64,000 bases of DNA from Eudromia elegans (taxonomy: Eukaryota; Chordata; Aves; Tinamiformes; Tinamidae), in the NCBI GenBank assembly GCA_003342815.1, contig PTEX01000006.1, positions 3,762,427 to 3,826,426 on the forward strand. Direction: 5' to 3'. Under the pieces are notes generated by a model that had not been told where the DNA came from, ran no database searches, and saw only the letters and a list, made by a program, of their open reading frames with translations. Position numbers and translations under genes: made by a program. This document shows, piece after piece, positions 38,600 through 61,830 of this stretch; the first letter of the stretch is position 1, and each line of letters begins with the position of its first letter.

Positions 38600-39229
38600 C
38601 TATCTCATCCAGGTGGCGCGGCCGAGCCCGGCCACGGGCGGCATGCCGGGCGGCGGGATGGGGGGCGGCACGGGCGGCTGCCCCCCCGGCGGCACGGCGG
38701 GCGGCGGGTAGCTGNNNNNNNNNNNNNNNNNNNNNNNNNNNNNNNNNNNNNNNNNNNNNNNNNNNNNNNNNNNNNNNNNNNNNNNNNNNNNNNNNNNNNN
38801 NNNNNNNNNNNNNNNNNNNNNNNNNNNNNNNNNNNNNNNNNNNNNNNNNNNNNNNNNNNNNNNNNNNNNNNNNNNNNNNNNNNNNNNNNNNNNNNNNGGG
38901 GGGGTACACGTGCGGGTGGTAGGGCAGGTGAGCTGGGGGGCCGTAGGCCGGGGGCAGCGCTCCGTAGGTTGGTCCTTCCGTTTTCATCATGGACTGGAGG
39001 CTTTGGTAGCCCTCGCCGGACATGTAGGAATTTGTGGTGGACATCCCAGTAATGTAACTGGTGGGGGGTGGGGGTGGGGGCCGGTGCGGCAGGGGCGGTG
39101 GCTGATGCACCGGGGCGGGATGAGCAGGAGGAGGGATCTGCACCTTGGGCATGTCCACCGAGTCCACCGTGGAGCTCTGCTCCGCTTCTCCCATGGACAC
39201 CGCGCTGCTCAGAGGAGGAGGTTTGCGCT
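38600..39229 (-). CDS. CCNK: CCNK coding exon 10, proline-rich end with stop (gapped)
   Basis: The acceptor GTGTTGCAG precedes 39229. The frame reads [17 protein letters not shown], then [19 protein letters not shown], then the [14 protein letters not shown] block, and reaches HPHVYPP at the gap edge (38898). After the gap it resumes [14 protein letters not shown] and ends GLGRATWMR with TAG at 38600-38602. The exon is extremely GC-rich. The missing part is expected to be a Pro-rich stretch of about 60 residues. The frames on the two sides do not agree across exactly 183 Ns. Confidence 0.93.
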
Positions 39230-42200
39230 CTGCAACACACAAAGCTCTGCTTACTCTTGTGAAGGGGGGTGGCAGCAACAACACCCGAGTGGTCCTCAGC
39301 CCTCCTCCCATAACCGCAGCAAAAGGGAACTCCAAGTTCTCCAAGTCCCTCTACGCCATTCCATACCCAGTTAGATGTTCCTATGTCCCCAGCAAATTGC
39401 TGAGCTGCAGACCAGAGCTCCCAGATCGGCTTCTCCCAGCTCAGGAGTTAAATACTCTGTCCCCCCAACTTACCACTGCTTTTACTTATGACTTAAATAC
39501 TACAAAACAGTACATCAGAAGTTAGCGGACTATTGGAAAGACTCACAACCAGCAGGTTTTAAGGAGCCATGGGACCCAAGGCACCCCAAATGCTCTGACC
39601 AGTGTTTCCGTCCTGCACAGCCCGTGCCTCCCTTGCCTCCCTTTCACGTCTCTCACTCCAGAAGGCAGCCCAGGATTGATCACTGCACTTCCCTCAAATA
39701 CTTGGAGGCAATACTTGAGAATACAGGCCAAAGTCTCAGGTCTTTCACACTGAGTGCTCAATCTGTTTATCAAAAAGGGGGCAGCGGGAAGGGAAGGGGA
39801 ACAACACGTTTAGAATAAAGCAAGAAACTGGCATTGATTACTTGGGATGTGGAATCTGATAGACTCTGTTCCACTGATGACTTCCAGGTAGCTCAGTGTA
39901 TGACAGCCCAGGGGAGCGCACCAAAAAGATCAGAAATTTACAGAATCGCCCTTCGCCAGTTTCAAGATGGACCTGCATTCAGCTGTCCTCTGTAGAGCCC
40001 ACAGAAACTAGTTACCTGCACAGTTAGGATTTGTCTCATATAGAGTCATAGTTTTAGCAGCTACACTGACCTCTAGAAAAACTCCATAACCCAATTACGC
40101 CACGTATGTGCACTAGCTGTGGTACTTATGATTTCAAGATTTTGCAGCTCCTAAACTGCAAAAAAAAAATCTTTCTGAAGATATACTTATATTATACAAG
40201 ATTGATTAACTGAAGAATGGTGACTACCATCTTAAAACCAACCCCAAAGCCCCCAAACCACATACCATTCCTCTTAACTGGATTTTAACAAATGAGGAAA
40301 AAAAGAGTTTTCATGTATTTCAAAGCACTGCTTCTATCTCTTCATATTCCCTGTTAGAAGCTGTCATCTTGAAGCTGCATTATGAAGTACATGCTATAAA
40401 ATATTTATGTCATATCTAAGGGTCAGTGGCAGGACAGCTAACGTGTCAAAGTGCCAGAAGCACATTTTTTCAACAGTAAAATTTACTTTGCAAACATAAG
40501 GCATGCATGAAGTGTTAAAAGATCTCCATCAGATACATCCTCTTTGGGGCATAGCCAAGATTAAACACACCCCTTTTCTTGCAGTTACAAACCTGCATGT
40601 TCTATAATGCAGATGTTACATGCGGAACTTCAAGAGGACATTTCGAAGCTAGTGCCCTAACACTAAGGAGCCTTCTAAGGACACAAATCCCTTCTGCTTC
40701 CTCACCATGGCTAGTTTATTCCTCTAGGCTTTCACAGTCTGAGCTTTATCTTGCCTTTGTTCACACAGTGTATATTCATTTCCATCATAACTTTTTGGTA
40801 TTGATTAAAAAAAAACGTAAAAAGTGCATTCTACAAAGATGAAATGTCCTCCAAAACCTGGCTAGTACTACTGCTGATTAACTACTCATTTCCAAATCTA
40901 TCAATGAGAGCAACAATCCTTCCCCTCACGTGGTGGGGTAGCAACCACCATTGCAGTAAACTGCAAGAGAAGCAGCATTTAAGAAATAAAAGTTTACCTG
41001 GAGGTGGATGTGCAGGAGGTATCGGTGGATGCGAAGTTTCAATTTTGGGAATTTTAGATGGTGGTGGTGGTTCTGAAAAACATGGGAAAGTTCCCAATTT
41101 GCTACTGCACTGTTTGAAACTGATATAATTTACCATGTTCATACGAAGTGCAGTAGATACCCTATATACTAGGCACGTTTAATAAATGTAACTAGAATCA
41201 AGACCTATGTATAAAAGAATGGCATCAAGTATCACACAGCAGTCTGTCAGAAGACCACAGGCCTACAAATTCCAGCTATGTATTTTATAACTAAAGGATC
41301 CTAGTGACAGTATAAATGTGCATAACAGCACATGCAGATTTTAGCAGAAACTGGAACTTGTACATAGCGAAAGCTTCAGGAGGAGCTGAACCCCTGTGTC
41401 CTGCTAGGGGCAGGTGGAAGGTGAGAGAAGGGACAGGCAGCTCTTTGGAATCTCCCTGCAGAGCCAGAGGCAGGAGAGTTGGCACACTCCTTACCAAGGA
41501 AACGTTACAGAATCAAATCCGAGCTATCCTGAAACACGCTATCACAAAAACCAGAATCCAAAAAGCCCACCAGAAGAACTAGCCATGAGCACAGTTACAG
41601 CACACAGCTAAGAATGCAGTACAGGTATCAAATAGTTCCGATGACCCAAGCCTGCAAGTTGACTAGCTAAACACACATGAGACAGTGACTCATTATGGCT
41701 AAAAGAGCAATTTTGCTTACAGAAAATGAAAAGAATCATTAGGAAATACTGACATACCTGTTGCCTTTGTTTCTTCTTTGGGAGATACAGCCTGTTTAAA
41801 GAGAGGGAAAAAAAGAAAACATGACAACCATGGTAGCATACAAAGCATTTCAAAACAATAACAAGAAACACAAGCAGGAAACAACTCTGGCCTGTTGAAG
41901 GCTTTTTGTACAGATCTGAATAAAACAGAACCTGTTTCCAACTCAATCCTCCTCCCTCCTAAAAGAAGGGGAGGGCCCCCCTTTACCTGCTTCTCTGCTT
42001 GAGGAGGCTATTAATGCTCAACAGTACAATACTAGCTTAAGAAGAATGAAGAGACCAAGAAAAATTACATCCTTTTAAAATACAGTATTAAATATAGCAT
42101 TTTCTTGGTGTTCTCTTTATTGAGTGTTACCATCTTGTTTGTTTTATTTGTAAAATTTATGGCAGATATATCATGGTCTAGTAAACTGCTCACCAAGCTG

Positions 42201-45200
42201 CGAGCAACTGACTCTGCTTCTGTTCCTAACACTGCAACTTCACCGTCATTTGACCTTTGCCAAAGCCCTTCAGGTATTTATACTTTATTTATCAGGGCAA
42301 GAGAAGGGTGAAATTTTGCTCAGTATAAAGCCTTTTAGAAGCCTTCGAAATAGCCAATTATTATGCAAGAAGACAATTATCATGCAAAACTATATTAATG
42401 AACACTGAGGAAGACTCATAAAGCTTCACTTCTCCCTTCTGACTACACATTTTTTGGTATTGTTTTGCTTTAACAGTCACAGACAAGGGTGCCTCAGTAG
42501 TCTTTCCTAGCTCGCTGACTCCAAGAGAGTTGGCCAGTTGATAGACATTTCAAGAGTGAATTTTCATCTATTCTTCTGAGGATTCCCAAAATGTCTGTCC
42601 AGTGCAAAGCTACCCAAGACCTGCTTCCTGTGTTCCTTTCAATTCATCCCCTATCACCTTTCCCCCCTACTTATGGGCAGCCTTAATCTGTCTCTTCCCA
42701 CACACACACACACTTCCTGATGACCATGCAGACGCAACTGCCACCCTCACTTTAGTCAGGCTTTCTCTCCTCGACTTTCCAAAATTAAATTTCCCTGTTC
42801 GTAAGTCTATGCAAATATTCAATCTCTCCTACATTTTCACGGAGAAACAAGTCTCCACTATGACCTTCCAGTACTACAAAAAAAATCAGTAATTCTGTGC
42901 AGCCAAGTGTTCAGCTCAAGTCATAGGCAACTCTGTTACGGTGTTATTTGTTTACAGGGAGTAGTGTTCAGAAAGCAATGTCAGTGAGGTACCCTATTAG
43001 TATGGAACAAGCAAATGCAGCCAAATACGAAACAGCTTATGGAACAGAAAAACAAAAATCAGTTTATGCCATGAGTGTGGTGCGTTTTTTTGGTTTCGGT
43101 TGTTTGTTTTCAGCATAAACAAAGTCTATCAAAATATAAAGTACTTTCCTAAAATGGCAGTCATTTTGCATTTTTCCTCCTGTCAGTTTCACACGGCCAT
43201 TTTAGCCAGGTCTTTGCTTTATAGTGTATGTGTAGTGAGTGTGTGTATGTATGTGTGTGCATATATATATGCGTGTATATACACACACACACTGAATGCC
43301 ATCTCACTAGTTACAACTAATGATTTAACAGAATACTAGTTACTATTTGACACTTTCACAAGGTCAATCCACACCCTAACATAACTGTTCCCTTAATACT
43401 TTTTCTACAAGCCTTAAAAACTGCTCTCACTAAAAACAGATAGACACATACAAAAAAATCCAAATTATTTATGGTTTCTGACGTGCCAAACTGTGCCAGG
43501 TATATTTGTTCTAGACCAAAAAAAAGAAAAAAAATTCCCTGAATCAGATCTGACAGCCTGAACAGAATCTGTGCCAAATGTGGAGTTTAAAAAGAAGACA
43601 TACTACCTCTAAAGAGCTCTGTCAATTGTCAGTTTAGTTAATAAATGTTATCATTTCTCTATCCTGATCAACTCTAGAATACTTCAGTGTAAGAACTGCA
43701 CATTTAGTGCATTTCATCCTCTTAGAATTAGTAGGCTATATCTTGTATTAAAAGATACAAGTTTTAGATATTTAAATTTTCCTCTTTTTGGGGGGAGGCT
43801 GCTATAAGGAAGCAGCCAGAGGAATGAACTCTTTGTTCTTTCATTCCATCCTTTTTTGTTTCTTCCTGTTTCTTGCCACCTGCCCTCTAGTTTGGGTTAC
43901 AAGAAGACAGAATATAACTTGTACAAAATTTATTTCCTACATGGGAGTATTCTGGAGATCTTACTTTTGAAAACATTCCTCCTACTAAGTAGATGTGTTA
44001 CCCGAATCTTCACACTTTTATACTTTTTTTAGTAACTCAGATGTGAAACACAAAGCGTAGATAAAGGTTCAAAAGCTTCATTTGGACTTGATGACTGCAG
44101 ATAAGCACACGAGTACTTGAGACACCATCCAACTGCCAACACACGTTCTTATTTTCAACAATTAGGTGATAATGCAGACTATAAAATGAGACCTTAATGC
44201 ATTTTGCATTTGTAGGCTTCTACTGTTATTAGATTATTTTGGAAGATGCTTCCTAACCACTAGCACCAGAATTTTGACACACTTCTAAATAAAAGTAACC
44301 TTTCTCCTATGCTTGCAATGAAAGGTCAAAAAGATAAACAGTGTTTTCATCAGCACAGTACACATGTGGCAATTAAAAGCAAATATCCTATAGCAATCTG
44401 ACAAGGTATGAGCGCCATACCCTAAATCACGCATGCTCAAGAGTAAAAAAGATCTGGTAGCACAGAACCAGGAACAGAGGTTACCTTAACAGCTCATGTT
44501 CACTAATGAATCTGCCCTCAGGATTTGCCTCGAGTGCAGCGAATGTGCAGGATGCCCAGACTGTCAAGATTGTTCCATGCTTACATACTTGTCATACAAC
44601 TGACAGAAGTCTGCCACAGAATAATTACTTTCCGGTCTCATTTTAAAGGGAAACCACAAGTTTGCTGCACAGAGCAGGCCCTAAACCAAAGAGGCATGAA
44701 AATAAAATGTAAGTTCAAGTTCACTAAACTTACTGCTGGTCTTTTGATCTGTCTGGGAGGGCTTGACTGGGGAGAGGGCTTTTTTGATTGCTGTGCTTGT
44801 GCCTGCTGCTGCTGCTGCTGCTGTGCAGACTGCTGAGACTCCTTCTGCTGCTGAGCCTGGGACTGCTCTGAACCCTGGGGCTGCTGCGACTGCTGCACTG
44901 TAGGTGCCTGGGGTGCAGATTGAAGAGATGGCGGCTGCTGCAGCTGATGAGGAGTGTGATGAGGCATCTGCTGCTTCCCTTGTGAGTATAGATCCAGAAT
45001 CTGGTGACAGATATCTAGAAAGGAAGTGTCAAGATTAAATATCTGCAACATACAAGTAGACATTCAACACACAATGTTCAAGCTTTTTCCTTAAAAAAAA
45101 AAAGAAAATTTACTATAGTATTTTTAAGATTAGTTTTCAATTTACTCCCACATTTTTGAGTTCCTTTTGGCTATGGTGAATACGTAGGCACTTACGCAAC

Positions 45201-48200
45201 CCTCCAGGGACACAAACAAAGTGTCTTGGCATTAAGAAATTACATGTCATTATTGTGTGCTTGGAGAGCAACACAGCAAATAAACAACACAGAGCAAATG
45301 TTAAAAATATGTGTAATGGGATGGGTCAACAAAGTTTAAAGAATAACTAATCAGAAGTAAGAATAAATCCTTATTTCAACACACAGGGATCAAGAAGTCG
45401 GCATGGGATCGTGTAAGACCAACTGATAACGGGGTGCAGGAGCAGCACTCAAGGCAGACAAAGCTCTTACAGGAGGGCTAAATGAGCCCTTTGCATCTGC
45501 ATTAACTGAGGCAGTAGCGGGAAATGGAGATATCCATGCTACAACTTTCTTTGGCAGAGACTCAGCAGAAGATGTGTCTTGAATTTAAGAAACTCTGAAA
45601 CAAGCTGCAATCCAAATACAGCACATCGCCACATATTAAAAAAAAATTAGAATTACCAGAACTGGATGGTATTCATCTAAGAATTCTAGAAGAAACCAAA
45701 GGATAAAATATCTGAATTATGAACATTAGCATATATCCTTTCACTTAAAACACCCTTACTATCCAAGACTAGTTAAGTGACAAGCATGACATTGATTTTT
45801 AAATACAGTTTATAAAGCTGTTTACAGAATTATGGATTATATTTTTATCAGATAAGTTAATAAAAACTATAATAAAGACAAGTTAGTGGCTACTTATGCA
45901 TAATTTACTTAATGAGAGACAGCAGAGATCCTGCTTTATGAACTTCCTGGAGTTCTCTGAAAAGGACAAGCACTTTATAAATGAGTAATCCAGCTGATAA
46001 GAGTCTTAGATTTTGAAAAGAATTGACAGAATCTTCCACATACTTTCAAGGACTCTAAGCGACATCAGAATTGGAGTAAAGGGCTTGGTTAATAAGTTTA
46101 TTTGAAGAAAAGAACATGGTTAAAGTAAGGGATGAAGTCTCACAACACAGAAGAATTCAAGCTCTGTAGAAGTCTGTGTAGGGATCTCCGCTGTCTATGG
46201 GTGCCAAGGATATGGCAAAATTTACCAGTGACGCAAGGTTATTTCAATGAGTACAGTGACAGCAGTCAGTGGAGACCTAGTTCTAAGTTCTGTTGCTGTA
46301 ATCAGACAATATAGTTGCAGATGAAATTCAGTGCAGAAATATGCAAAATATGCACACGGGGAAAATGCTCCTACCTTTATATATAAAATAACAGACTTGG
46401 AGCTGGTCACTATGTTCAAAAGCAAGAGTTTAGAGATAAGACAGACACTTAAGTGAAAAGAGTGGCTCAGAGACCCACAACGTCAGAAGGAAAAAAAAAA
46501 AAAGTAAAAAATGAGTAGAAAACATTCTACTACCATACTGTACTTGGTAACATGTACAAACCCATGGCTCATTTATATATTGGGACCAAAATCACATATA
46601 TAAACCACCGCTCCTCTCAAAAGGAAGAGAAACAGAACTGGAAAACTTCAGATGGACAACTCAAATATCCAAAGGTAAGGAATGATTTCCATGTAAAAAG
46701 CACTCAAGGAAGCAGGAATTCTTCAGACCAGAAACTGCTTAGTAGATATGGTAACTGCCTGCAAAATCATGAATGCCTGGGGAAGGCTGACAGGGATAGA
46801 ACACCTCAGATAAGACGGTGCCACAAAACAAAGCTATTAAGAGTCAGGTTCCAAACAGAAAAGGTGCTGATCCCTAATGAAACAGGTAACAGACTTGCAG
46901 AATTCCTTGATAAAGATGTTATGTGGGCAAATAGCTTACTGTCGTTCAAGAGGTTACAGGATAAGTACATGGATGAGAGATCTATTGCAAGTAATTTATT
47001 AGTTATTGGGTTGAGAGTTGCATTAGGACTGAGCTCACAAAACCATTCAGACCAGATATTGAGACTGCATTAGGGGAAAATTATAAATGTTCTTATTTTG
47101 GAATTTCCTTCAGTCAGTACTGGAAAGGAACTGATTTTAAGACTGTTGGTCTCAATCAATATAGCCAATCCTATGACCATGAGCAACTAGTATCTTAATT
47201 ATTTGTATGACAGGATCATTAATCCTTAAATTTAAGGCTGTCAAAACGCAAAGACAAGGACAGAAGACCTTGAAGGCATTGTACAAAACCAAAACAGGTA
47301 GTTCCTATTTAAATTCTTACAGAGTATGAAATTCATGACAGCCGTGTTAAAAAGATTATCTTTTTGTTTTAGTCTATGACGACAGGATAAAGTCTAAAAT
47401 ATAAAGCGCTCCTCCATTCAGAAAAGCAATGGTCTGTGCAGGAAAGATCCCACTAGCTACTCCAAAAGAAAATCTGATGGATGAATTTATGCTTCGAGAA
47501 AACACAAAGGAACAATATTAAGATTCTGTAAGGATGAAAACGATCCAGAATAAGCAATTAGAAACTACAGAATCTAGTTCTCATTTCTAGCAAAGCGTAA
47601 GACAGGAATTCCTACTTGCAGTACTAGTATAACTCTGTTAAAGAGGTTGATCATCACGAGCAAAACACTGTGAACTTGCCTTCGTTAGTAGTACTACTGC
47701 TTAACAGCTGGGCTATGAACTAAATAATTATTAAAATAAATATTAACAAGAGACTAATCAGGACAATCAACATTCCACACTAAGCCATTCTAGAAGCTTA
47801 ATTATGAATTTGGATAGGGCATAGCATATACGTTCTAAGGTCAATACGCTATACAGGATTATTTCTGTGTCAGATGCAGAGAAAAGGTAGTTGGAATGTA
47901 CCTACTACCTGCATCACACAGTCATGGGAAAAAAAATCATTTGTCTGTAGCAGGTGTTTCTCATACCTTCCAGAACATCAACAGGGACGTCTTGGACAAA
48001 CTGTTCCCACCACCGTCTGTACATGGGTTTGGAGGTCCATTCTTGTATTTCAAACTTACACAAACGACCTGCTAAGTACATAACTGCAACAGCTATGATC
48101 TCCGGCTCCCACTGCAGTGACAGTGTAGTGCAGAGGCTAGAAGACATCAAAAAAACAAACAGATCTGAAGACAATTCTGATTGTCAAAGTAAAAAATTTA

Positions 48201-51200
48201 GAGGGTACAAACTACGTGGAGAAGCCTTGTTAAATAAAAAAACTTACAAAACGAAACTGTTTTAAACTACTGCTATTAAACAATATAATGTTAGGCACAT
48301 GATACAGGGAGCACTTGCCTGTAGCAGTAACATACCACACGTGGAGCTTTAAAATAAGAAACCTGAATACCACATGTATGGCAAAAAGATAAAAAGACAA
48401 TACAATATTACAAGTATGGGTAGCTACATTCCACTGTGGTCTTCCCTATGGCATTACGTTTTGACTCAAGCTCTAAAAAGGTTCCCTTTCAGTAGTTTTT
48501 GCTAAAACTAATGTTCTAAAGTAGATATATTTAATATCAAGAACATCAGCTATGTAATAATCTCATAATTTAAATTACAAATTTTTTCTTTTTGTGGCAA
48601 GTTAGCTCTTCTGTAGCTTCTGTAACAGAAGATCTGCTTAACCAATATACCTATTAAAACAATTTCACATCCCCTCAGCCAGATAGATTTGTGCCAATTC
48701 ACTGAAAATTTCATTGCTATGTCTTTAAATGCATGAAAATAGTAGCCTATGCAGTCATTTAAATAATTTTCTCTTGGTGGGCTACAGATGACTCAAGGCA
48801 AATGAGGCACTTCAATATTGGAGCAATCAAGCCAGCAATCACCAGTAAACACACAAGAAATAGCTCTCAAAACACTGAGTCACTATTATTATCTTTGGAT
48901 ATTTACTTGAATATGTGTTACAGCTGCAGAAGAAAAACAAACAAAAAACCACAAACAACAGCTGGTCTAAAGGCCTACAATGCAAAGTATAGGATTATTA
49001 TTCCAGGATCCTAGAAATCGAATACACTTCTAACATGGTGCCTATCAAGCAAGCACAAAACAGCCTCTTAAGAAGAGAGAGAAATCTTATTTGAAACAAC
49101 TACTCTAGCCCTACATCAGCATTTTCCTGAAATGCATTTTCCTGAGTTAATTACTAAACATCACAGAATTCCAAATTTAGTACTACTGAAGTATGAAGGA
49201 TATAGAAAGATTTTTCCTAAGACACTTTACAAGTAATAAGAGCCAAACTACACATTTTTCTTCTTATGCATCATCAAGAGGGGCAGAAGCTGAAGTATAC
49301 ATCTAGTGGCATGCAAACATGTTAACAAACCTTTTGCTTAAACTAATTAGGGCAGGTTATGGGCTATCACCTATTATGCAATCCAGTAACCTATTTGGGT
49401 TACCTTTACAGATTGAGAACTTGGACCCACAATGCAGTATTTAAAATTAGGCATACAAATAAGAACGCGTCTCTTTTTTTAATTGTGGGAAACTGCATTT
49501 CTGAAGACTCCAGACTTCAATAATGTCTTAAGAATGTGCTATAAAAAAAAACAATTAGACTTTTTAACTGCCATTTGTAAATTAACTTCTGGTGCAGAAC
49601 TGGGCTTGCAGTGACCGCTTGTGGGCGTAAGTATTGGCCGCATGTCCAAGTTAAATCCTTTTAGAGCTGGACACAAGAAAATCCTATTGCTTCTCCATTC
49701 CTGCTCTTGCCATTTCCCTTTAGTAACTTTGCTTCATACTCTTAATATATTAACATGCTGAGTTTTGCTTTATTAAAAACTAAACTATTCAACTTGCTCT
49801 GTAGAATCCAACTTAACAGAACTAAAGTATATAAAGTTCTATTTTAAAACACTAATACACATGCAAAAATGATTCAAGAAACTGTAATTTTACCTCTAAA
49901 ATAATATTTGTACTGGATTCAATGTCTTATTATTAAAATACACCTTTTTTTTCATAGTTGACCAACATGACAGAAAAACAACGCTGTTTAAAACCTAGAA
50001 TGAAGTACAGAAACAGAATGGTATCTTGCAGTAATGTATTTGCTCAGAATGAGGAACATGTCCTGGGCTGGGCAATAAGTCAGCTTCTCTCCTCAAGATC
50101 TAAAATGGTTTAATGTTTCGAAAGAATTTTCATTTTTTTCAAATGTGAGTATTAAATCCTTCCCACAAAATGTCACACACAGGTCTTAAAAGCCTAGCCC
50201 TTCTGCAATCATCCTGCCCAAAACCATGGTGAAAACTGGGAAACATCTGTATCAGAAAGAGGTCAGTTGCCTTCACTATTTGCAAATACCTAACTAGCAT
50301 TTCTCAAAGCAGTACCTGAGTCCCAAATGACCTTAACAATAGTAACAATCTCACTATCAGAAGTTGCTGCTGTGCCTTACCTGTCATTCACAAATGTCCA
50401 TGCCATTTGAACCAATTTCTGAATTTTATTTTTGTCTCCTGAAAAATAATCAGGAAAGTTATGATAAGCTATTAAAAAGGGCAAATAGCTTGAAAGACAA
50501 TAGCTCCCCACTCTTAATGTTAATTAAGTTTCCAAGATAAAGAACAAGTATGACTTGCTCACCCTGTACTATTTTACCTTTGAGCTGTTTGGCATACTTG
50601 AGCAGGAATTGGTATGGATGTTCCACTTGCAAATCAAACTTTATCGTTTGTAGTAATATTCTTTCCAGGACCATCACCTCTTCCTAGAGAATGTAACAAG
50701 GTAAACACAATATTGTTCCTTTTTTTTTTTAACTCATAAAATATTTTACGTTGGTGTAAAGTCTGACTACAGAGCATCTCCAAACAAATATGTGACTGCT
50801 TTCACTTGATTAAAGAATGTCTCCAAAGATACAATTAAAATATTTAATTTGAAAAAGCTTATTGCAAATATTATTTCTCCTTCTGTCTTTTTTTTTCCCC
50901 TGTACTTGAGAGAAGCAGAATTTTGTTAAGCTAAATATTCTAAACAGGAAACCTCCTGAAACTAAGATACAGTAAGATTTTCTATTAATTATTTCCCAAT
51001 ACCACATTATACTATCATCAAGATTTATCATGTTTGTACCTCCTGACCAAGTGGACCAAATTTCCTGTCCTTCTTTGCACCAGCCCCAATCAGAATTTGC
51101 ATAATGAAATGGAAATGAAATGTAAACCTTTTATTCCACCATTTGCCATCCTGGGCTTCAAAACTCATTTCAAAACTATTGTATTAGCAAGAAGTGTCAT

Positions 51201-53463
51201 CACAGTTATATGTTGAACACATAATTTTAACAACCGAAATTTAGCACCTTTACCTTTGGATCATCTCCAAACTGTCCAAACTGTACATCATTTAATAAAC
51301 TACGGGCTGTTTTGATTATATCTTTACATTTTTTAGGTGTTTCTTCAACTTTTCCTGCCAGGAAGAGACAGCAGGCTCCTGTGACCTAAAAAAAAAAAAA
51401 AAGTGGTTTCAGGAAGTTGTCTGCATTTCTAACACTTTACTGTATTGCACTGTAAAAGCACTATCAGCTTCCATTAATAGATCCTCAGAAGTTTCCCAGG
51501 GAAAACTTAATAAGGTTGTTAACGTCTCAATTATAGTGATAATTCAAGCTTTTACTTCTTCAAAGTTAATACAGAATTTGGACAACAGTCAAGTACACAC
51601 AGCTTTATTTCATGCTTAAACATCCAAAGAAGAATTTGTCTTGATAGAATATTGCCTGTCAAGCAGTTTTAAGATGGTAAAAAAAAGAAAGAAAAAAATC
51701 ACTGTCATGCAGCAATAACATAAAAAACTACAGCAGTTAGTCTTTGTAAAGAATATCACCATGACATAACTGAAATATCAATATAAATGTGTTTCTAAGC
51801 GTACAAGTGAAAATATAAACAAATAGAATACCATGTTTTAAGCTCTAATTGTTCATATAAAATGTTTATTTTGCATTATATGGAAAATATTATACTTCCT
51901 GGAACTATATTATCCTGTATTTAAAGGATGTTTATTTTTAAAACAATAACTCAAATACAAAAAGTTAAATGTTCTCCAAGTCACAGACCTTCTTAATATT
52001 GCTCTGCGACTCCTGACACTGTAATACTAAAAATAAAAGTTGACATTGCTTGGTTTATATCAGTGATGCTGTGAAAAACGTTTGTGTCTAGCTGCAGTGC
52101 CCAAGTAATCTGTTACCAATGGAAATCATTTCTGCTTAGCACAACTGCCGTATTAAGTAAACAATATTGTATATACTTACATATCTGGGGAACTGTTTGA
52201 AGGAATGAAACATGTAAAATCGGTGGAAATAAATTATTCCGGTTGCTAACGTATCATAGTGTCTGTGTTGCGGGTTAAGGATTTTTCAAGTGTAAAAACA
52301 GCATAAAACAAATTCCAAACCAAAGACACATAAGCAAAAGGATGCATTTTGATTCACCAAGTAACTCATCTGTCTGTTCAAAGAACAGTTGAAAAGCAAG
52401 TTACAGGCTTTAGAAGCCTGCCACCCAAAAAAAAAGACTTTACACATGATCAGTAAGGGCTTTGGATATGAACTGCATCGGGGCTGAACCACCGTCTTCA
52501 TGTAGTCTTATGTTTCAAGAGTGTTTTTTTTTTTTTTTTTTTTTTGGTGGCATGCTATGACCGTGCATTTCTTTTTTATAGGTTTTTGGTGTGGTCATCC
52601 ACATGACAAATTCCAAACCTGTCCAGAAAAGGCCCAAAACTGTGGAAGGTGCAGAAATTAATGGAACAATTATCACTTCATATCTAACTGTTTTTGTAGA
52701 GAATAGTCATTACCTATATTTATAAACGCAAATAAAAGTTAAATATGTTCCCTACACTTTCATTTAAGAACAAAAATGAAATTTCACTGTTGTCAGTTTC
52801 TATTAAATAAAGAAGTGGAAAAAAAAAGTACTAAGAACGTAGGAACCAAGAAATTACCTATTCTCTCCAACACAGTGGAGAGAAATTACTAGCATATAGA
52901 AAAAAATGCAGCTCCATCTTAAATAAAAACAGGCAGAGGGGCATTAGAAGTCTCATAGATAAAATATGCAGAAAAAGTTCAAAATCCAAAATTTAAGGAA
53001 CTTCTGTAGATTCATACAGTAAGAGATCACGCCATGCACAACTGGTAAGTCTTCCCTGCTCTGTTGCCACAGGAATTATGTTCAAGCCTTGATTATTCAA
53101 TAAACGGATAAATATTACACAGAAACTTTTTATACCAAAAGGTAGCTAATCATAGGCAATTTTTGATTCCTGACAAAGTAGCATCCGAACAATGAAAGAG
53201 ACATTTCTAGTATGCTTTACTTTCAAAACTGCAGTTCACAGAAACATTTATATATTTGAAGGATACAGGCCTAAACGTGTCCCTACATCAAATATGAATC
53301 TGGCCCCCTCTCTGCGGTATCTTGCCTCCGTAGCTGGATCAAGCCCTTCTAGCTGTGAAGGGGTATGTGCCAAATCCTTCTTATCCCAGTACCAGCATGG
53401 CTTTGTATGGTCCAGGTTTGCCAAGTTTACAGAAGGACTGGAATTTTCTTTGTTCTCCTTCAT
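38600..53463 (-). CDS. CCNK: CCNK, cyclin K (ten coding exons)
   Basis: Cyclin K activates CDK12 and CDK13, which phosphorylate the RNA polymerase II C-terminal domain and support transcription of long and DNA-repair genes. The coding join, 5' to 3' on the - strand, is 53463-53267, 52262-52181, 51385-51254, 50683-50578, 50438-50381, 48136-47967, 45014-44734, 41791-41758, 41072-40998 and 39229-38600. All splice sites are GT-AG and all phases agree. Residues 1-20 are a short leader ([12 protein letters not shown]). Residues from about 20 to 260 form the two cyclin boxes ([46 protein letters not shown]). Residues from about 260 are Gln- then Pro-rich, with [11 protein letters not shown] and [20 protein letters not shown]. 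The end is GLGRATWMR. Length is about 587, near the 580 I recall for human. A 183-N gap interrupts the last exon. Confidence 0.96.
38715..38897. other. assembly gap (183 Ns) in CCNK last exon
   Basis: A single run of N lies inside coding sequence, flanked by GC-rich, C-run sequence on the CCNK strand. On that strand the upstream frame ends on a codon boundary at 38898, while the downstream frame has its first full codon at 38713. That leaves 184 positions, which is one more than 61 codons. The true length must therefore differ from 183. Confidence 0.97.
39230..40997 (-). other. CCNK: CCNK intron 9 (coding numbering)
   Basis: Bounded on the - strand by CCAG/GTAAAC and GTGTTGCAG/. It carries a short C-rich part next to the last exon and is otherwise AT-rich and featureless. 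No repeat was recognised. Confidence 0.9.
40998..41072 (-). CDS. CCNK: CCNK coding exon 9
   Basis: Acceptor TTTTTCAG, donor CCAG/GTAAAC. The exon encodes [20 protein letters not shown] and then AHPPP, with a split Glu codon at each end (phase 1). The Lys-rich KIPKIE core in a proline context is conserved in cyclin K. Confidence 0.93.
41758..41791 (-). CDS. CCNK: CCNK coding exon 8 (34 bp)
   Basis: A very short exon between TTTAAACAG and AACAG/GTATGT. It reads [11 protein letters not shown] plus the first base of the next Glu. It joins in phase to the exon on either side. The match to cyclin K's VSPKEE segment supports it despite its size. Skipping it would shift the frame. Confidence 0.88.
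41792..44733 (-). other. CCNK: CCNK intron 7 (2.9 kb)
   Basis: Bounded by GCA/GTAAGT and TTTAAACAG/. The intron is AT-rich and contains the TG/TA/CA simple repeat at 43225-43292. No gene was recognised. Confidence 0.9.
43225..43292. repeat. mixed (TG)n-(AT)n-(CA)n simple repeat
   Basis: Imperfect GT/GTAT repeats lead into a perfect 14-bp palindrome (GCATATATATATGC, 43259-43272) and then TATACACACACACAC. The two arms are roughly inverted, so the tract could extrude a hairpin or adopt Z-DNA. It is probably a microsatellite. Confidence 0.85.
44734..45014 (-). CDS. CCNK: CCNK coding exon 7, Gln-rich
   Basis: Acceptor TTTCTAG, donor CCAGCA/GTAAGT. Residues 249-342 begin [18 protein letters not shown], the end of the cyclin fold. 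They pass through a Gln/Ser/Pro-rich linker and finish [17 protein letters not shown], a basic Ser-Pro stretch. A run of seven Gln (residues 313-319) comes from seven uninterrupted CAG codons; I recall four Gln there in human. Confidence 0.95.
44803..44823 (-). repeat. CCNK: (CAG)7 polyglutamine tract in CCNK
   Basis: Seven pure CTG triplets on the + strand encode seven Gln on the CCNK strand. The tract sits in a disordered linker between the cyclin fold and the proline-rich tail, so length variation is likely tolerated. Confidence 0.95.
45015..47966 (-). other. CCNK: CCNK intron 6 (3.0 kb)
   Basis: Bounded by GAAG/GTATGA and CTTTCTAG/. More than half of it is an old CR1 copy on the opposite strand (45,390-47,060). 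A 173-codon + strand open frame at 46552-47073 falls within that copy and is not a gene. Confidence 0.9.
45390..47060 (+). mobile_element. ancient CR1-like LINE, 3' part, antisense to CCNK
   Basis: Several segments match, in order, the old amniote CR1 (CR1-L3 type) consensus as I recall it. One near 46,030 resembles the GACACTGTCTCAC region. TGCAGATGAAATTCAGTGCAG then AAATATGCAAA lies near 46,315. CTTGGAGCTGGTCAC is near 46,396. GCAGAATTCCTTGATAAAGATGTT leads to AGATAAGTACATGGATGAGAG-like text near 46,900-46,980. Stops and indels are frequent, so it is long dead. The 5' limit is approximate. Confidence 0.6.
47967..48136 (-). CDS. CCNK: CCNK coding exon 6, second cyclin box
   Basis: Acceptor GATGTCTTCTAG, donor CTGGAAG/GTATGA. 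It encodes [20 protein letters not shown], then [18 protein letters not shown], then [19 protein letters not shown]. These are core helices of the second cyclin fold and are nearly invariant in cyclin K. Confidence 0.96.
48137..50380 (-). other. CCNK: CCNK intron 5 (2.2 kb)
   Basis: Bounded by GACAG/GTAAGG and TCTTCTAG/. AT-rich throughout. No repeat family or RNA gene was recognised. Confidence 0.9.
50381..50438 (-). CDS. CCNK: CCNK coding exon 5
   Basis: Acceptor TTATTTTTCAG, donor AATGACAG/GTAAGG. It encodes [19 protein letters not shown] and the first two bases of Ser, linking the two cyclin folds. Confidence 0.95.
50578..50683 (-). CDS. CCNK: CCNK coding exon 4
   Basis: Acceptor TTCTCTAG, donor CTCAAAG/GTAAAA. 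It encodes [20 protein letters not shown] and then [15 protein letters not shown]. It is followed by a short intron of 139 bp (50439-50577). Confidence 0.96.
50684..51253 (-). other. CCNK: CCNK intron 3 (0.6 kb)
   Basis: Bounded by CCAAAG/GTAAAG and TTCTCTAG/. AT-rich with T-runs. Nothing else is visible. Confidence 0.9.
51254..51385 (-). CDS. CCNK: CCNK coding exon 3, first cyclin box
   Basis: The acceptor follows a T-run ending TTTTTAG; the donor is CCAAAG/GTAAAG. It encodes [20 protein letters not shown], then [12 protein letters not shown], then [12 protein letters not shown] (44 residues). The [11 protein letters not shown] helix is the most recognisable cyclin-box signature here and carries the Lys and Glu typical of CDK contacts in transcriptional cyclins. 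Confidence 0.97.
51386..52180 (-). other. CCNK: CCNK intron 2 (0.8 kb)
   Basis: Bounded by AGATAT/GTAAGT and TTTTTAG/. AT-rich with several A-runs. No other feature was seen. Confidence 0.9.
52181..52262 (-). CDS. CCNK: CCNK coding exon 2
   Basis: It encodes the end of a split Leu codon, then [19 protein letters not shown] and SFKQFPRY. The donor is a standard U2 type, AGATAT/GTAAGT. The acceptor (CAACACAG) lacks a polypyrimidine tract, in keeping with the U12-type signals of the intron before it. Confidence 0.95.
52263..53266 (-). other. CCNK: CCNK intron 1 (coding numbering), U12-type signals
   Basis: On the gene strand the donor is /GTATCCTT (53266-53259), the minor-spliceosome 5' site consensus. 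A TCCTTAAC branch-site match (CCTTAAC at 52280-52274) has its likely branch A at 52275, 13 nt from the next exon. No polypyrimidine tract precedes the AG. The intron is phase 2. It also holds a run of 22 T on the + strand (52524-52545). Confidence 0.85.
52524..52545. repeat. poly(T)22 / poly(A)22 run
   Basis: A run of 22 T on the + strand inside the U12-type intron. It could be the tail of a small retro-insertion on the - strand, but I saw no target-site duplication or recognised body. Confidence 0.8.
53267..53463 (-). CDS. CCNK: CCNK coding exon 1 with start codon
   Basis: ATG at 53461-53463 begins [20 protein letters not shown], then [20 protein letters not shown], then [16 protein letters not shown] and [10 protein letters not shown]. 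This is the accepted cyclin K start. The exon probably begins at 53535, after a good pyrimidine tract (TTTCCCTTTTTCTTTTAAAG), giving 72 nt of 5' UTR in this exon. A second AG at 53478-53479 is closer but has a poor tract. Confidence 0.96.
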
Positions 53464-53535: not shown

Positions 53536-54865
53536 CTTTAAAAGAAAAAGGGAAACACACATCTTTGAAAATATTGGGAAAGTAACCTTTTTTTTTTCAT
53601 GTTAAAACAATGAGTAGTCAGCTACTAAGCTTACAACATGTACCGTGAGTCTGGAAGCTACTGTATCATCTAAAACCATTCCCAAAGCAAGGCTGATTGC
53701 ATTCCATTAATATGTTGTTTTCCTGCATTGATTTGTATTTCACAAATCTACACTGACAGTTACCAGTTCCATAGATAAGTTTTTGGCATTTGGGGGATGA
53801 CAGATGCTCTCCCTTTAAAGTGAGAATAAAGATTGGCTTAGCATCTTTACTTCCTTTCAGGTAATAAAATAAGATTAGACTATTTCACCACAATGCAATA
53901 AACCACACATACTGTGCACTATTGTAGTCATGTGCAAAGGTTCCTGCAGTAAATGGTAATTACGATATGATATAATTTATTGCTCCAAGCATAACAGTCA
54001 GAGAAACACCCACTTGTAAAGCTACTAAAATTAGGTTAAGCCTAATTTTCCAGATGTTTTCCGCTTGAAAATCAAACAGAATCTACATAAACTGTCAGAA
54101 TACCTAATGTCTACAAGGAATTCCTGCCTCTAACTTCACAAAGTTTCTCTTTTTCAGAACAAGAGAAACCACCTCTGCTCCACATTCTCACTTGGGGGAT
54201 CTCCACTGCTAAAGACACCAGTGACAGGCAAATCCACATCTGTCACAATAAGTGAGCAGATACTCGAAATCCTTTCTACGGTCAGCAAAACAGCTCAGTG
54301 CCACTACCAGGCACTTCTGGTGTTATTACCAAGAAAGTATTCATCAGTCTTCAAGCACCAAATAAAGAACAAAGAAAACGGTCTCTAAGTTCACTGAGCA
54401 TTTTCAAGCAGTATCAGCACTAAAATTTTCTTCCTGAAAAGCAGCAAGAGCTACTTCTACAAGCAGCACAGCCCTCCCCACTGTAAAATCGTAAAAATCA
54501 AACCAAAACAGCCCTGAGACGCCCTCAAAGCAGTCACCTCCGGCTCGCCAACCAAACCTACAAGAACCAACGCTTTTCTGTTTTCTCCCTTTAACAAACT
54601 CGCAAATACCGATAAGATCTCACAATTAAGAATCTTTACTTTTCCCCTCGCTCATTAGCACAGAGGTGATGGAGGTGGCCCCGGCAACCCGAGGGAGGGG
54701 GGGGAAGCTGCTCCTCCCCCCACCTCCGGCGCCCCCTCCCGCCGCAAACAGTGCCTCCGCTGTCCGGCCGTCACCCCCTCCTGCCGCTCCAGCCTCGTCA
54801 CCCCCTCCCCGAGGCGGGATAAAAGGACCCGCCCCAACGCCCCGTCGCTCCGTACCGCATTTACA
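53536..54865 (-). other. CCNK: CCNK intron in the 5' UTR
   Basis: Predicted intron between non-coding exon 1 and the ATG exon. It is AT-rich at the 3' end and becomes very GC-rich from about 54,655, where the CpG-rich promoter region starts. No other gene was recognised. Both boundaries are inferred from splice motifs only. Confidence 0.55.
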
Positions 54866-54960
54866 GGCCCCGCTCGGCAGAGGAAACCCCAGGGCAGCGC
54901 GGCGCCACTAACGACAGCACTGCCCTCGCTCCCTGCGCGCCGCCATCTTGGGAAGCAGGC
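54866..54960 (-). other. CCNK: CCNK non-coding exon 1 (predicted)
   Basis: A GC-rich stretch just inside the promoter, with a YY1 word near its 5' end and a donor candidate GGGGCCT/GTAAAT (GT at 54864-54863). An alternative donor GCG/GTACGG lies slightly further on. The transcription start is inferred from the YY1 position; no frame is expected. Confidence 0.4.
54941..54950 (-). promoter_or_regulatory. CCNK: YY1 site at CCNK transcription start
   Basis: CAAGATGGCG on the CCNK strand, within AAGATGGCGGC. This is the YY1 consensus in the orientation that usually lies just downstream of a TATA-less start site, which places the CCNK start at about 54,950-54,965. Confidence 0.6.
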
Positions 54961-55400
54961 CAGGCCGCGCTTGCGTCATCACGCCGGCGGCGCGCGGTCG
55001 CGGCGCGCGGGCCGCCGCGGCCGCCTCTTGACCAATGGGAGCCCGCGCCTGCCGCGGCCAATCCCGCCTCCTCCAGCTCCTGCCGAGCTAGAGGAGCTGG
55101 CACGCAACCTGCGCCCCTCGCCTCAGCATGGTCCAATCGGAAGCCAGGAGCAAGGTGATTGCCAGCCGCTCGAGCCAGTAGAAAACTGGAGGCGCGGATT
55201 TAACGGCAGCCAATGGGCGAGCAGTCACGCCCTCTCCCCAACCGGTAGCGGAGGTGTAGCTTTGCTCCCCAGCCATTGGCCGTCAAGGGGCTTGCAGGGG
55301 GTGGGGCCTCGCTTGCCGGCGCGGCCGTGCCAATGGCAGCGGGGCGGGGGCGGGGCGTGCGGGGGNGGGGCGGGGCGTGCGGGTCTGGGGCTGCCTCTGC
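54960..55400. promoter_or_regulatory. CpG-island divergent promoter, six CCAAT boxes
   Basis: About 440 bp of GC- and CpG-rich sequence separate the two divergent transcripts. CCAAT pentamers occur at 55032, 55058, 55133, 55210 and 55330 on the + strand, and ATTGG (reverse) lies at 55275. GC boxes (GGGGCGGGG) cluster at 55341-55380. No TATA box is placed for either gene. NF-Y and Sp1 binding are inferred from the motifs. Confidence 0.75.
55341..55388 (+). repeat. G-rich tandem GC-box repeat with one ambiguous base
   Basis: Two near copies of a CGGGGCGTGCGGG unit are separated by a G-run with a single n at 55366. Four or more G-runs make a G-quadruplex plausible on the + strand. The ambiguous base is probably a read-through problem in the G-run. 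Confidence 0.6.
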
Positions 55401-55453
55401 CACCGCCTCCCCCGGCGAGAGGAGCTCGGCCCGCGCGCAGCCGCCCCGCGCAG
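55400..55453 (+). other. SETD3: SETD3 non-coding first exon (predicted)
   Basis: GC-rich sequence ends CCGCGCAG/GTAACG, a good donor at 55454. No ATG-started SETD3 reading frame is present, as expected if translation starts in exon 2. SETD3 is the actin histidine-73 methyltransferase. The name rests on the CCDC85C-CCNK-SETD3 order known in human and on the head-to-head arrangement, not on coding sequence. The 5' limit is a guess. Confidence 0.45.
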
Positions 55454-57163
55454 GTAACGCGGCGCCCGCGGCCCGGCCCGGCGCTCCCCGCGGGGTCTCG
55501 CCCCGCCACGGCCCCCGCCGCCACCTCCCCTTCCTGGGAGCGCGCGGCTCTTTCTGGGCCTCGCCGCCCCCCCCTCACCGCCGCGCGGCCGTCACGGCGC
55601 TGACCCCGGGCGTCCCCTCCCACCGCGGGCGGCCGTTACGGGGCCGCTACGCGACCGTTACGCGCGCGCCGCATGCCCCGACCCGCCCCCCGCTCGTCAT
55701 CCCGCTGCCCTCGGCTGTGCGTGGGTTTCCTTCGCCACTAGGAAAGCAGAGTGAAACGAAAGGTTTAAAACTGCTTTCTCCGTGGTGTAATTCTTTTTTG
55801 TTTTATTTGATTTTTTTTTGCTTTATTTTGTTTTAAATATCTATATGTGACACATTTTGAATACTCCTTCAGCTTTTCAAAGAGCCTTCCATAGCTCCAG
55901 TCCTCAGGATTTGGCTCCATAGCGTTTCTGCTGGTATGTGATTCTCCGGGGCCTTTCCATGGTAGTGAAAGTGCTCTGGCTTGTTCCTTCTTCTCATGCA
56001 GTCCATAACCTGCTGTTAATATTGGGTTTAACCGAACAAGGGGAAAGGTGGCTTTTAAAATTAGAATACGTGCTTTGCATTTAAGTAAAGTGTAATTTAA
56101 ACTGCTTATCTACAAGGAAATTATTCCTGCAACAGCCTAAGTGTTGCAACCTCTCTGAATTGTTGCTGAAAGGAAATTTTCAGTGAAATTGCTCTTGGGC
56201 TCCCTTTGCTGCTCAGAGCAGAGTTTGTAGAGCAGCTTCAGCTGAGTTTGTGCTTTGCATGTGCCTCTAATTCTCAGCAACTTCCTAACTTCTACATTAG
56301 AGTGGCAGTTCTAAATACAGAATTTTGGAACTAGTGTAGGTAAGAAAACAACTGTATTCTTCTACATGTCTGGTAAGGTATGAAATAAGGAGCAGATGTA
56401 GCAGTTATTGGAGAGACTAGCAAAATCATGGTAGGAGGGTGGTAATTTTTGCCTAATTAGGTTATTTAGTGCTATGGTAGAGACTCAAGCATGATAGCTC
56501 TAATTGAAGTTTCAGTTATGTTTAGTTAGCTGGATTAAGTATGTGTTGAAATAAAATCTGAAAAGGCATTCTTGTCCTAGCATGCCTGGATATAGAGCTG
56601 GGATCCAGGCAGGAGAGAAGCCCAAGCCCTGAAATAATTTGTAATCTCCACATTAATGTTTCCAGTTAGTGGTGATCTGAGCTGTATGCTGAAGTTCAAT
56701 CAGAAATTTTTTGATAGGCTTGTAATTGTGGTATTGTATTTGACATACTGTGTTGTATTTTTAAGCTACTGCAGGTTGAAAAGCAAGGATCTTAATGGTA
56801 TTGTTATTATAATTGATAAAATGAACCTGGATATAATACTTTATCATAATGATAGTGATCATATAGTTAAACTAATATAATGGGTGTTTCTCAGAAAATG
56901 AGTGTTTAGAAATTGTTGGTCTGAGGTTATTGGAGATACCAGAGGATCTGCATTTTTGCTGCCAGAACGTTGTAATGTTCAGCACTTTGTAAATAAAGTG
57001 AGATAGGACGTGCCGTGGTGCCAGTGTGTTAAGCAACAAGTGCTTTGTAGTACTGGGCCCTTATTCCTTCTGTCTTTGTTCTAATGCCTGACCCAGGGTG
57101 AACTGCTGATCCTCAGGTAGGAGTTCTAGGTATATGAAGTGCTAGTTATATAAAGACCATATT

Positions 57164-59989: not shown

Positions 59990-61830
59990 CCTAAAGCTAG
60001 GAGGTCTTGCAAAATGGCTGGGTTTGGAGATTGCCAAGTCCAACCCCTCCTGAAAGGAGACTGCTCAGGACCTTGTCCAGTTGTGTTTTAATATCTGCAA
60101 GTATATAGACTACACACTTTGTATGGTGACCTGTTTCAGTGGTCAATTATCTACATAGTAAGTTTTTTTTCATGGGTAGGTAAAATTTTATGTGTATCAT
60201 TTGTGCCTGTTGCCCACTGTGAGAACCCCTGTTTGTCTCTTTACTCTCTCTCATGCTGCTTTCCCCACTACCTCCCTTCAGGTGTTTAGACACATTGGTA
60301 ATATCCTCATGAACCTTTTCTTCCTCAGGCTGTGAAATCCCAGTTTTCTTAGCCTCTCCCTGCATGACAGATGTTCCAATCCCTTAATCATCTTTGTGGC
60401 TCTTCACTAGATCTTTTCTCTTATCTCCGTGCCTTCCTCGCGCCGGGGAGTTCAGAACTGGCCAGGGCACTCCTGGTGTGGTCTCGCCAGTGCTGAGTAG
60501 TCATGAATAATTCAGCCCACTGTCAACATGTTTACTGTTGCAGCCAGAGAGGCTGTTGGCCACCTTTGCCACAAGGATACTCTGCTAGCTTTTGTTCAAC
60601 TCTTTGTCCCTTAGGACCCCCACGACCTTCATCCACCAAATCCTTCTCTGCAAAGCAGCCTTTCAGCTTGCTGGCCCCTGCTGTGTGCTGCTGTGGAAGG
60701 TTATATCCCTCCTTGTGCAGCTCCTTCCATTTCCTTTTGAACTTCATGATATTCCTGTCTGACCACTTCTCTGGCCTGTTAGGGTCCCTCTGAATGGCAG
60801 CACAGCTATGTGCACCACTTGTCACCATTTTGTATCCTTTGCCGGTTTGCGGAGGATTCACTCTGACTCCTCGCTCAGGACATGAATGATCTGCAGCAGC
60901 ATTGGCCTCAGAATTTGCCCCTGGGATTACCTTGCTGAAGACTGGCCTGCAGCTTCATACTGCTGCTTGCAATTTCTTAGGTCTGGCAGTTCAGCCAGTT
61001 ATTGTTCTTGCACCAGTGTCTGTATTCCTAATCTGTGTTTCATCAGTTGATCTGAGGATGCAATGGGAGTTGATGGCAAAAGTCACTAAAGTCAAGGTAA
61101 TCAACATGCGTGGCTCTGTACCTGTCCCCTGGGCAACCTCCTCATCTTCTAAAGCTGTCAGGTTGCTTAGGTGTGATTTCCACTCCTACTGAATAATTCC
61201 AGTCACCTTTTTGCCTTCTCTCTGGAGATTTCTGGGATCATTTGCTCCAGCACCTTCCCACAGACTGAAATGAGGCTGACTGGTCTGTAGTTCTCCAGAT
61301 GCTCCTTTTTGCCTCCTTCAAGATAGGAGTGACACTCGCTTTCTTTCAGTGCTCGAGAACCTTGCCCAGCTGCCACAGCCTTTCAAAGACAGAGACCTTG
61401 AGGTTGACATGGCTGAGCTCACTTGGATGGATCCATCCAGTCATTCTGGATTGTGTGTACACAATTTTTTTAGGCAAATTCTTTTCCACTGGACATAAGT
61501 CTTCCATGCTGTGCATGTTTTTCACATGGTCTTTGGCATGTAGGATTCCTGAGGGCAGGTGTTTTCAGTCAAGAGCTTGTAATATATTAAAAACCTCAGC
61601 CTTTAGTCCTTGCTAAGAAGCTCTCCTTTGCTGTTCAGCAGCAAGCTTGTGCTTTTGCTAGTCTTGCTTTTGTTGCTGTTGCACCTGAGGGAGCTTATCT
61701 TGTTGCCTTGCACATCCCTTGCCAGGTTCAACTCTGGATGGGCTTTGACTCTTCTACTGCCTCCTTCCCTGCCATGTGTGCACAATGTCTCTATAGCCTT
61801 CCTGCTTCCAGCTCTTCTGGATATGTTTTA
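59990..61830 (-). mobile_element. degraded CR1 LINE (RT region to 3' end)
   Basis: The complement of the CR1 consensus can be followed along the + strand. Recognisable words include CAAGTCCAACCCCTCCTGAA (60,038), CAGGACCTTGTCCAG, CCCTTCAGGTGTTTAGACAC, CCAATCCCTTAATCATCTT, TCGCCAGTGCTGAGTAG, GAACTTCATGA, GGTCCCTCTGAATGGCAGCA (60,783), TTCAGCCAGTTA, AAAGTCAAGGTAATCAACAT, GAGGCTGACTGGTCTGTAGT (61,272) and CACATCCCTTGCCAGGTTCA. The element lies 3' end first, so it is on the - strand. Many substitutions and gaps break the reverse-transcriptase frame. The terminal 8-bp repeats were not found. Confidence 0.85.

Follow-up and report, generated by a model that had tools for sequence, protein, structure and literature searches.

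A U12-type intron in CCNK of Eudromia elegans and same-site introns in CCNT1 and CCNT2

The retention of minor introns has been assayed by RT-qPCR in mouse leukaemia cells for genes including Ccnk and Ccnt2. According to the passages of that work on these assays, retention was raised in all cases following Rnpc3 recombination, and the "Ccnk_U12_intron" was among the introns more retained upon Rnpc3 loss (EMBO Rep. 2025, PMC12332006). Minor introns also accumulate in certain gene families, and the sodium and calcium channel alpha subunits, E2F, MAPK and RASGRP are described as minor-intron-rich in the main text of PMC6865273, in which the string "ccn" has 0 occurrences and the cyclin T/K family is not named. 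Of 391 human U12 introns compared with chicken, 369 also belong to the U12 type in that bird (PMC2831892, Table 1, based on U12DB), so a U12 intron would be expected in bird CCNK as well.

We analyzed a 64,000-nucleotide stretch of the Eudromia elegans genome (hereafter the window), in which the original prediction had assigned a U12-type intron to CCNK. The nine coding introns of the gene were placed through the conserved protein and GT-AG ends, with only the coding part from the ATG considered. The predicted intron was recovered on the minus strand with exactly the coordinates proposed, and the features of the gene are as follows.

53267..53463, minus strand: first coding exon of CCNK, with the ATG at 53463, ending in ...RLG plus CT; the -1 base is T
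52263..53266, minus strand: first coding intron (intron 1), U12-type GT-AG, 1004 nt, phase 2; first base 53266, last base 52263
53259..53266, minus strand: U12-type 5' splice site GTATCCTT
52274..52281, minus strand: U12-type branch site TCCTTAAC, branch A at 52275
52263..52264, minus strand: 3' splice site AG, the sole AG downstream of the branch A
52181..52262, minus strand: second coding exon, starting with A plus CAC (H67YDTL) and followed by the U2-type donor GTAAGTATA
38600..52180, minus strand: rest of CCNK, with the other eight coding introns, each U2-like by consensus

The U12 branch consensus TCCTTRAC is expected about 10 to 20 nt upstream of the 3' splice site. In CCNK intron 1, the branch A lies 13 nt from the first base of the next exon, the distance originally predicted, and the branch site is directly followed by CCGCAACACAG, giving the 3' end CCGCAACACAG|ACAC; compared with the longer 9-mer TTCCTTRAY, it departs at a single position, the first, which is A. 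At the donor, where the exon/intron border reads CCT|GTATCCTTC, the claimed full match was borne out, with eight of eight positions agreeing with the consensus RTATCCTT (PMC2831892), taken in its GT form. GT-AG U12 introns are reported to favour U at -1, and U12 introns to avoid phase 0 (PMC7367187, PMC10639083); because of these preferences, the -1 T and the phase 2 position of intron 1, which splits the codon CT|A of Leu66, also count for the U12 type. The pyrimidine fraction at -23 to -4 is 0.50, and there is no tract adjoining the 3' end, in agreement with the original prediction.

The exon join, which had been held to be fixed by the protein, proved to be so. When coding exons 1 and 2 were joined and extended by one residue of exon 3, 92 of the 94 residues were identical to human cyclin K (chain 6b3e_B), and the two differences, at residues 13-14, are far from the intron 1 junction. 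The Pfam Cyclin_N match covers residues 41-155. Sliding the boundary in either direction is impossible because the joined sequence would change (the exon closes with T where the intron closes with G, and the intron opens with G where the next exon opens with A).

By comparing intron 1 with the other eight coding introns of CCNK, we found 0 of 8 donor mismatches and 1 of 9 mismatches to the branch 9-mer in intron 1, against 2-5 of 8 and 2-5 of 9 in the others. The pyrimidine fraction at -23 to -4 is 0.65-0.85 in seven of these eight introns; intron 9, with 0.45, falls below intron 1, so that the lack of a polypyrimidine tract is a weak sign and this measure alone cannot separate intron 1 from the rest.

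Either spliceosome can use GT-AG ends, so the termini of intron 1 would also suit a U2-type intron that resembles the U12 consensus by chance, and donor/branch pairs are indeed common where no protein fixes the junction. Two such pairs were observed in the 64 kb, which is not unusual (simulated mean 1.0; at least one pair in 56 of 100 simulated windows), and both use the same branch site, with donors at 53266 and 60580. Likewise, the donor 8-mer is not enriched genome-wide (11,412 + 11,353 occurrences versus 20,917 + 20,614 for the reversed pattern). The unanchored motif statistics were dropped as evidence, since simulated windows hold pairs as commonly; because unanchored pairs are ordinary, it is the protein anchoring that carries the evidence for the U12 type. 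At the protein-fixed junction, the chance of finding both motifs is about 1.6e-7, or 1.4e-6 over the nine introns (first-order Markov model on intron 1, 12 branch placements). Furthermore, the donor has 3 of 6 mismatches to GTAAGT, which together with the -1 T and the missing adjacent pyrimidine tract does not fit the U2 type; the mouse ortholog is retained upon Rnpc3 loss (PMC12332006), and the same signals appear in the two paralogs CCNT1 and CCNT2. Taken with these observations, a chance U2-type resemblance is extremely improbable.

The mouse record bears directly on the class of the intron. In PMC12332006, the methods state that the primers were placed in an exon and in the adjacent minor intron. 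The mouse Ccnk forward primer encodes ARFIFD; 16 of its 20 bases agree with the exon in our window, and its end lies 20 nt short of the intron 1 junction. The reverse primer, inspected by eye in three frames, shows no likeness to the protein of the next exon. Based on this primer position and primer design, we take the mouse Ccnk_U12_intron as the ortholog of CCNK intron 1, located in the same gene and at the same exon junction. The two belong to different species and were matched through the exon primer, not through intron sequence, and retention on Rnpc3 loss is a feature of the mouse intron. The rise in mouse retention corroborates the U12 assignment, and it also answers the question, left open in the original prediction, of whether this intron had been catalogued: the Ccnk minor intron is already in print for mouse (PMC12332006), and its occurrence in Eudromia elegans confirms its conservation. 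Two other reports were set aside. The human CCNK tandem donor was not used, as U12 introns were excluded in that study and the intron is not specified in the part concerned (PMC2423196); PMC10277747 mentions cyclin K and minor introns separately, with minor introns appearing in reference titles.

The protein consequence of failed splicing can be read from the intron itself.

53248..53250, minus strand: in-frame stop upon retention of CCNK intron 1, giving a 71-codon product

On translation, the read-through adds five non-native residues past Leu66 before the stop. The truncated 71-residue product would keep only about 26 of the 115 Cyclin_N residues (41-155) as native, so that intron 1 retention would place a stop inside the cyclin box and leave no complete cyclin box. 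Loss of cyclin K protein or nonsense-mediated decay would probably follow.

A genome search with a cyclin T2 probe, in which the best candidates were scored, gave four matches on two contigs, corresponding to two exons in each of two genes. In each gene, the two exons part at the residue that aligns with CCNK Leu66 or right next to it. We named the genes T1 and T2 by eye from their likeness to known cyclin T chains. Two putative cyclin L genes were also located with a cyclin L probe, from which they take their name; L1 and L2 are taken together here.

G000:C717:2665687-2666120: CCNT2 U12-type intron, 434 nt, CGT|GTATCCGAG ... TTCCTTGAT; branch A 14 nt from the exon
G000:C580:17060-17191: CCNT1 U12-type intron, 132 nt, CGT|GTATCCGGC ... 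TTCCTTAAC; branch A 13 nt from the exon
G000:C44 and G000:C264: two cyclin L genes; each has a U2-like intron in phase 0, lying two codons beyond the K/T site

The CCNT1 and CCNT2 introns are both in phase 2, splitting past its second base a Val codon that is aligned to CCNK L66, and the alignment of the cyclins has no gap at the intron site. Each of them carries 2 of 8 donor mismatches and 0 of 9 branch mismatches; with the branch letters included, their pyrimidine fractions at -23 to -4 are 0.70 and 0.65 for CCNT1 and CCNT2, respectively, so they are not pyrimidine-poor. In this one genome, every K/T gene that we found, three of three, thus has a U12-type intron at one aligned codon and in one phase. 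The cyclin L introns follow Gln and have the donors GTGCGC and GTGGGT, in which no U12 donor was seen by eye, and in cyclin C there is no intron at the K/T site, where the coding sequence reads straight through. As for mouse, the Ccnt2 minor intron is U12-type according to the assay passages of PMC12332006, like the CCNT2 intron found here at the CCNK-aligned codon; by hand translation its forward primer encodes GVEADE, upstream of the CCNT2 site, which is consistent with a common position and goes no further.

Because codon, phase and rare class coincide in K, T1 and T2, while cyclins L and C differ, the simplest reading suggested by these sequences is a single ancestral minor intron that predates the divergence of K and T. 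Alternatively, the three introns could have arisen, or been converted to the U12 type, independently at one codon. The comparison rests on one genome, and dozens of candidate minor-intron gains have been proposed in the main text of PMC6865273, both of which leave some room for separate origins; the coincidence in all three K/T genes, set against a U2-like intron two codons later in cyclins L and none in cyclin C, makes them improbable. Single inheritance from a K/T ancestor would also match the channel alpha subunit, E2F, MAPK and RASGRP families, whose paralogs share minor introns in the same manner, as is expected from duplication of an ancestral gene. Among the papers listed in our searches, which covered main texts, we found no published statement of a minor intron shared by K, T1 and T2.

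The U11 and U12 snRNAs of the minor spliceosome appear to be encoded in this genome. Over 944 Mb in 723 contigs, with the best candidates scored, we obtained one U11 snRNA match (106 bits) and one U12 snRNA match (152 bits), both over the family cut-off. The U11 match starts with AAAAAGGGC, and by eye the AAGGG near its 5' end can pair with TCCTT of the CCNK donor with one G-U; also by eye, GTAAGGA within the U12 match is complementary to TCCTTAAC with one A bulged, as in the standard model of this pairing. Within the 64-kb window, Rfam returned nothing at the gathering score.

According to the above-described analysis, we are highly confident in the joint reading that CCNK intron 1 is a GT-AG U12-type intron, is the ortholog of the mouse Ccnk minor intron, most likely descends from the K/T ancestor and truncates the protein when retained. 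In this species, it is presumably used as a minor intron, judging from its signals. The intron would already have been present in the gene from which cyclin K and cyclins T1/T2 descend, and it would be removed by the U11/U12-U4atac/U6atac spliceosome; if minor splicing failed, intron 1 would be retained, and the resulting 71-codon frame would end before the cyclin box is complete.

Cyclins T1 and T2 partner CDK9 and cyclin K partners CDK12/13, which are RNA polymerase II Ser2 kinases. Through the CCNK intron, CDK12/13 activity may be tied to minor-splicing capacity. On the other side, the minor intron of CCNK is rather probably a passive leftover that plays no regulatory part in cyclin K supply, a view that is compatible with the U12-type assignment and opposes the regulatory proposal only. 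A 2023 survey argues that the evolution of minor introns may in large part be accounted for by neutral processes (PMC10639083). Against such passivity, mouse Ccnk retention rises on Rnpc3 loss (PMC12332006), and minor introns can act as switches, given that U6atac is unstable and limiting (PMC3728624); in HeLa cells, as described in the same source, U6atac is regulated, being lowered fast by transcription attenuation and raised by p38MAPK. A change in cyclin K protein is not part of either result, and the passages on Ccnk retention in PMC12332006 describe no change in the activity of the kinase or in the protein cyclin K itself.

Returning to the regulatory proposal, a broader version is conceivable, although we hold it to be unlikely: the ancestral minor intron may have been kept in K, T1 and T2 so that the supply of elongation kinases is gated by minor splicing. 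If such gating were true, transcription and minor splicing would form a feedback loop, because U6atac falls quickly on transcription attenuation. Apart from this loop, the site common to K, T1 and T2 suggests that the Ser2-kinase cyclins may fall jointly where minor-splicing capacity is short, and we infer that a joint fall could play a part in minor-spliceosome disease and in the tumour effect of a minor-spliceosome block. The intron site common to K, T1 and T2 is the part worth following.

Several further observations concern the gene and its surroundings. A 183-N run at window positions 38715-38897 lies inside the last CCNK exon, and the reading frame differs on either side of it, with the C-terminal ...GLGRATWMR in another frame; since the frame differs across the gap, its length is probably an estimate. 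Upstream of CCNK, a GC-rich stretch at 54650-55600, noticed by eye, is promoter-like. The putative plus-strand neighbour of CCNK would be SETD3, as in human. On the minus strand at 61206-61382, a reading frame containing ...HLENYRPVSLISVCGKVLEQMI..., for which Pfam gave no match, presumably represents a remnant of a CR1-type LINE reverse transcriptase.
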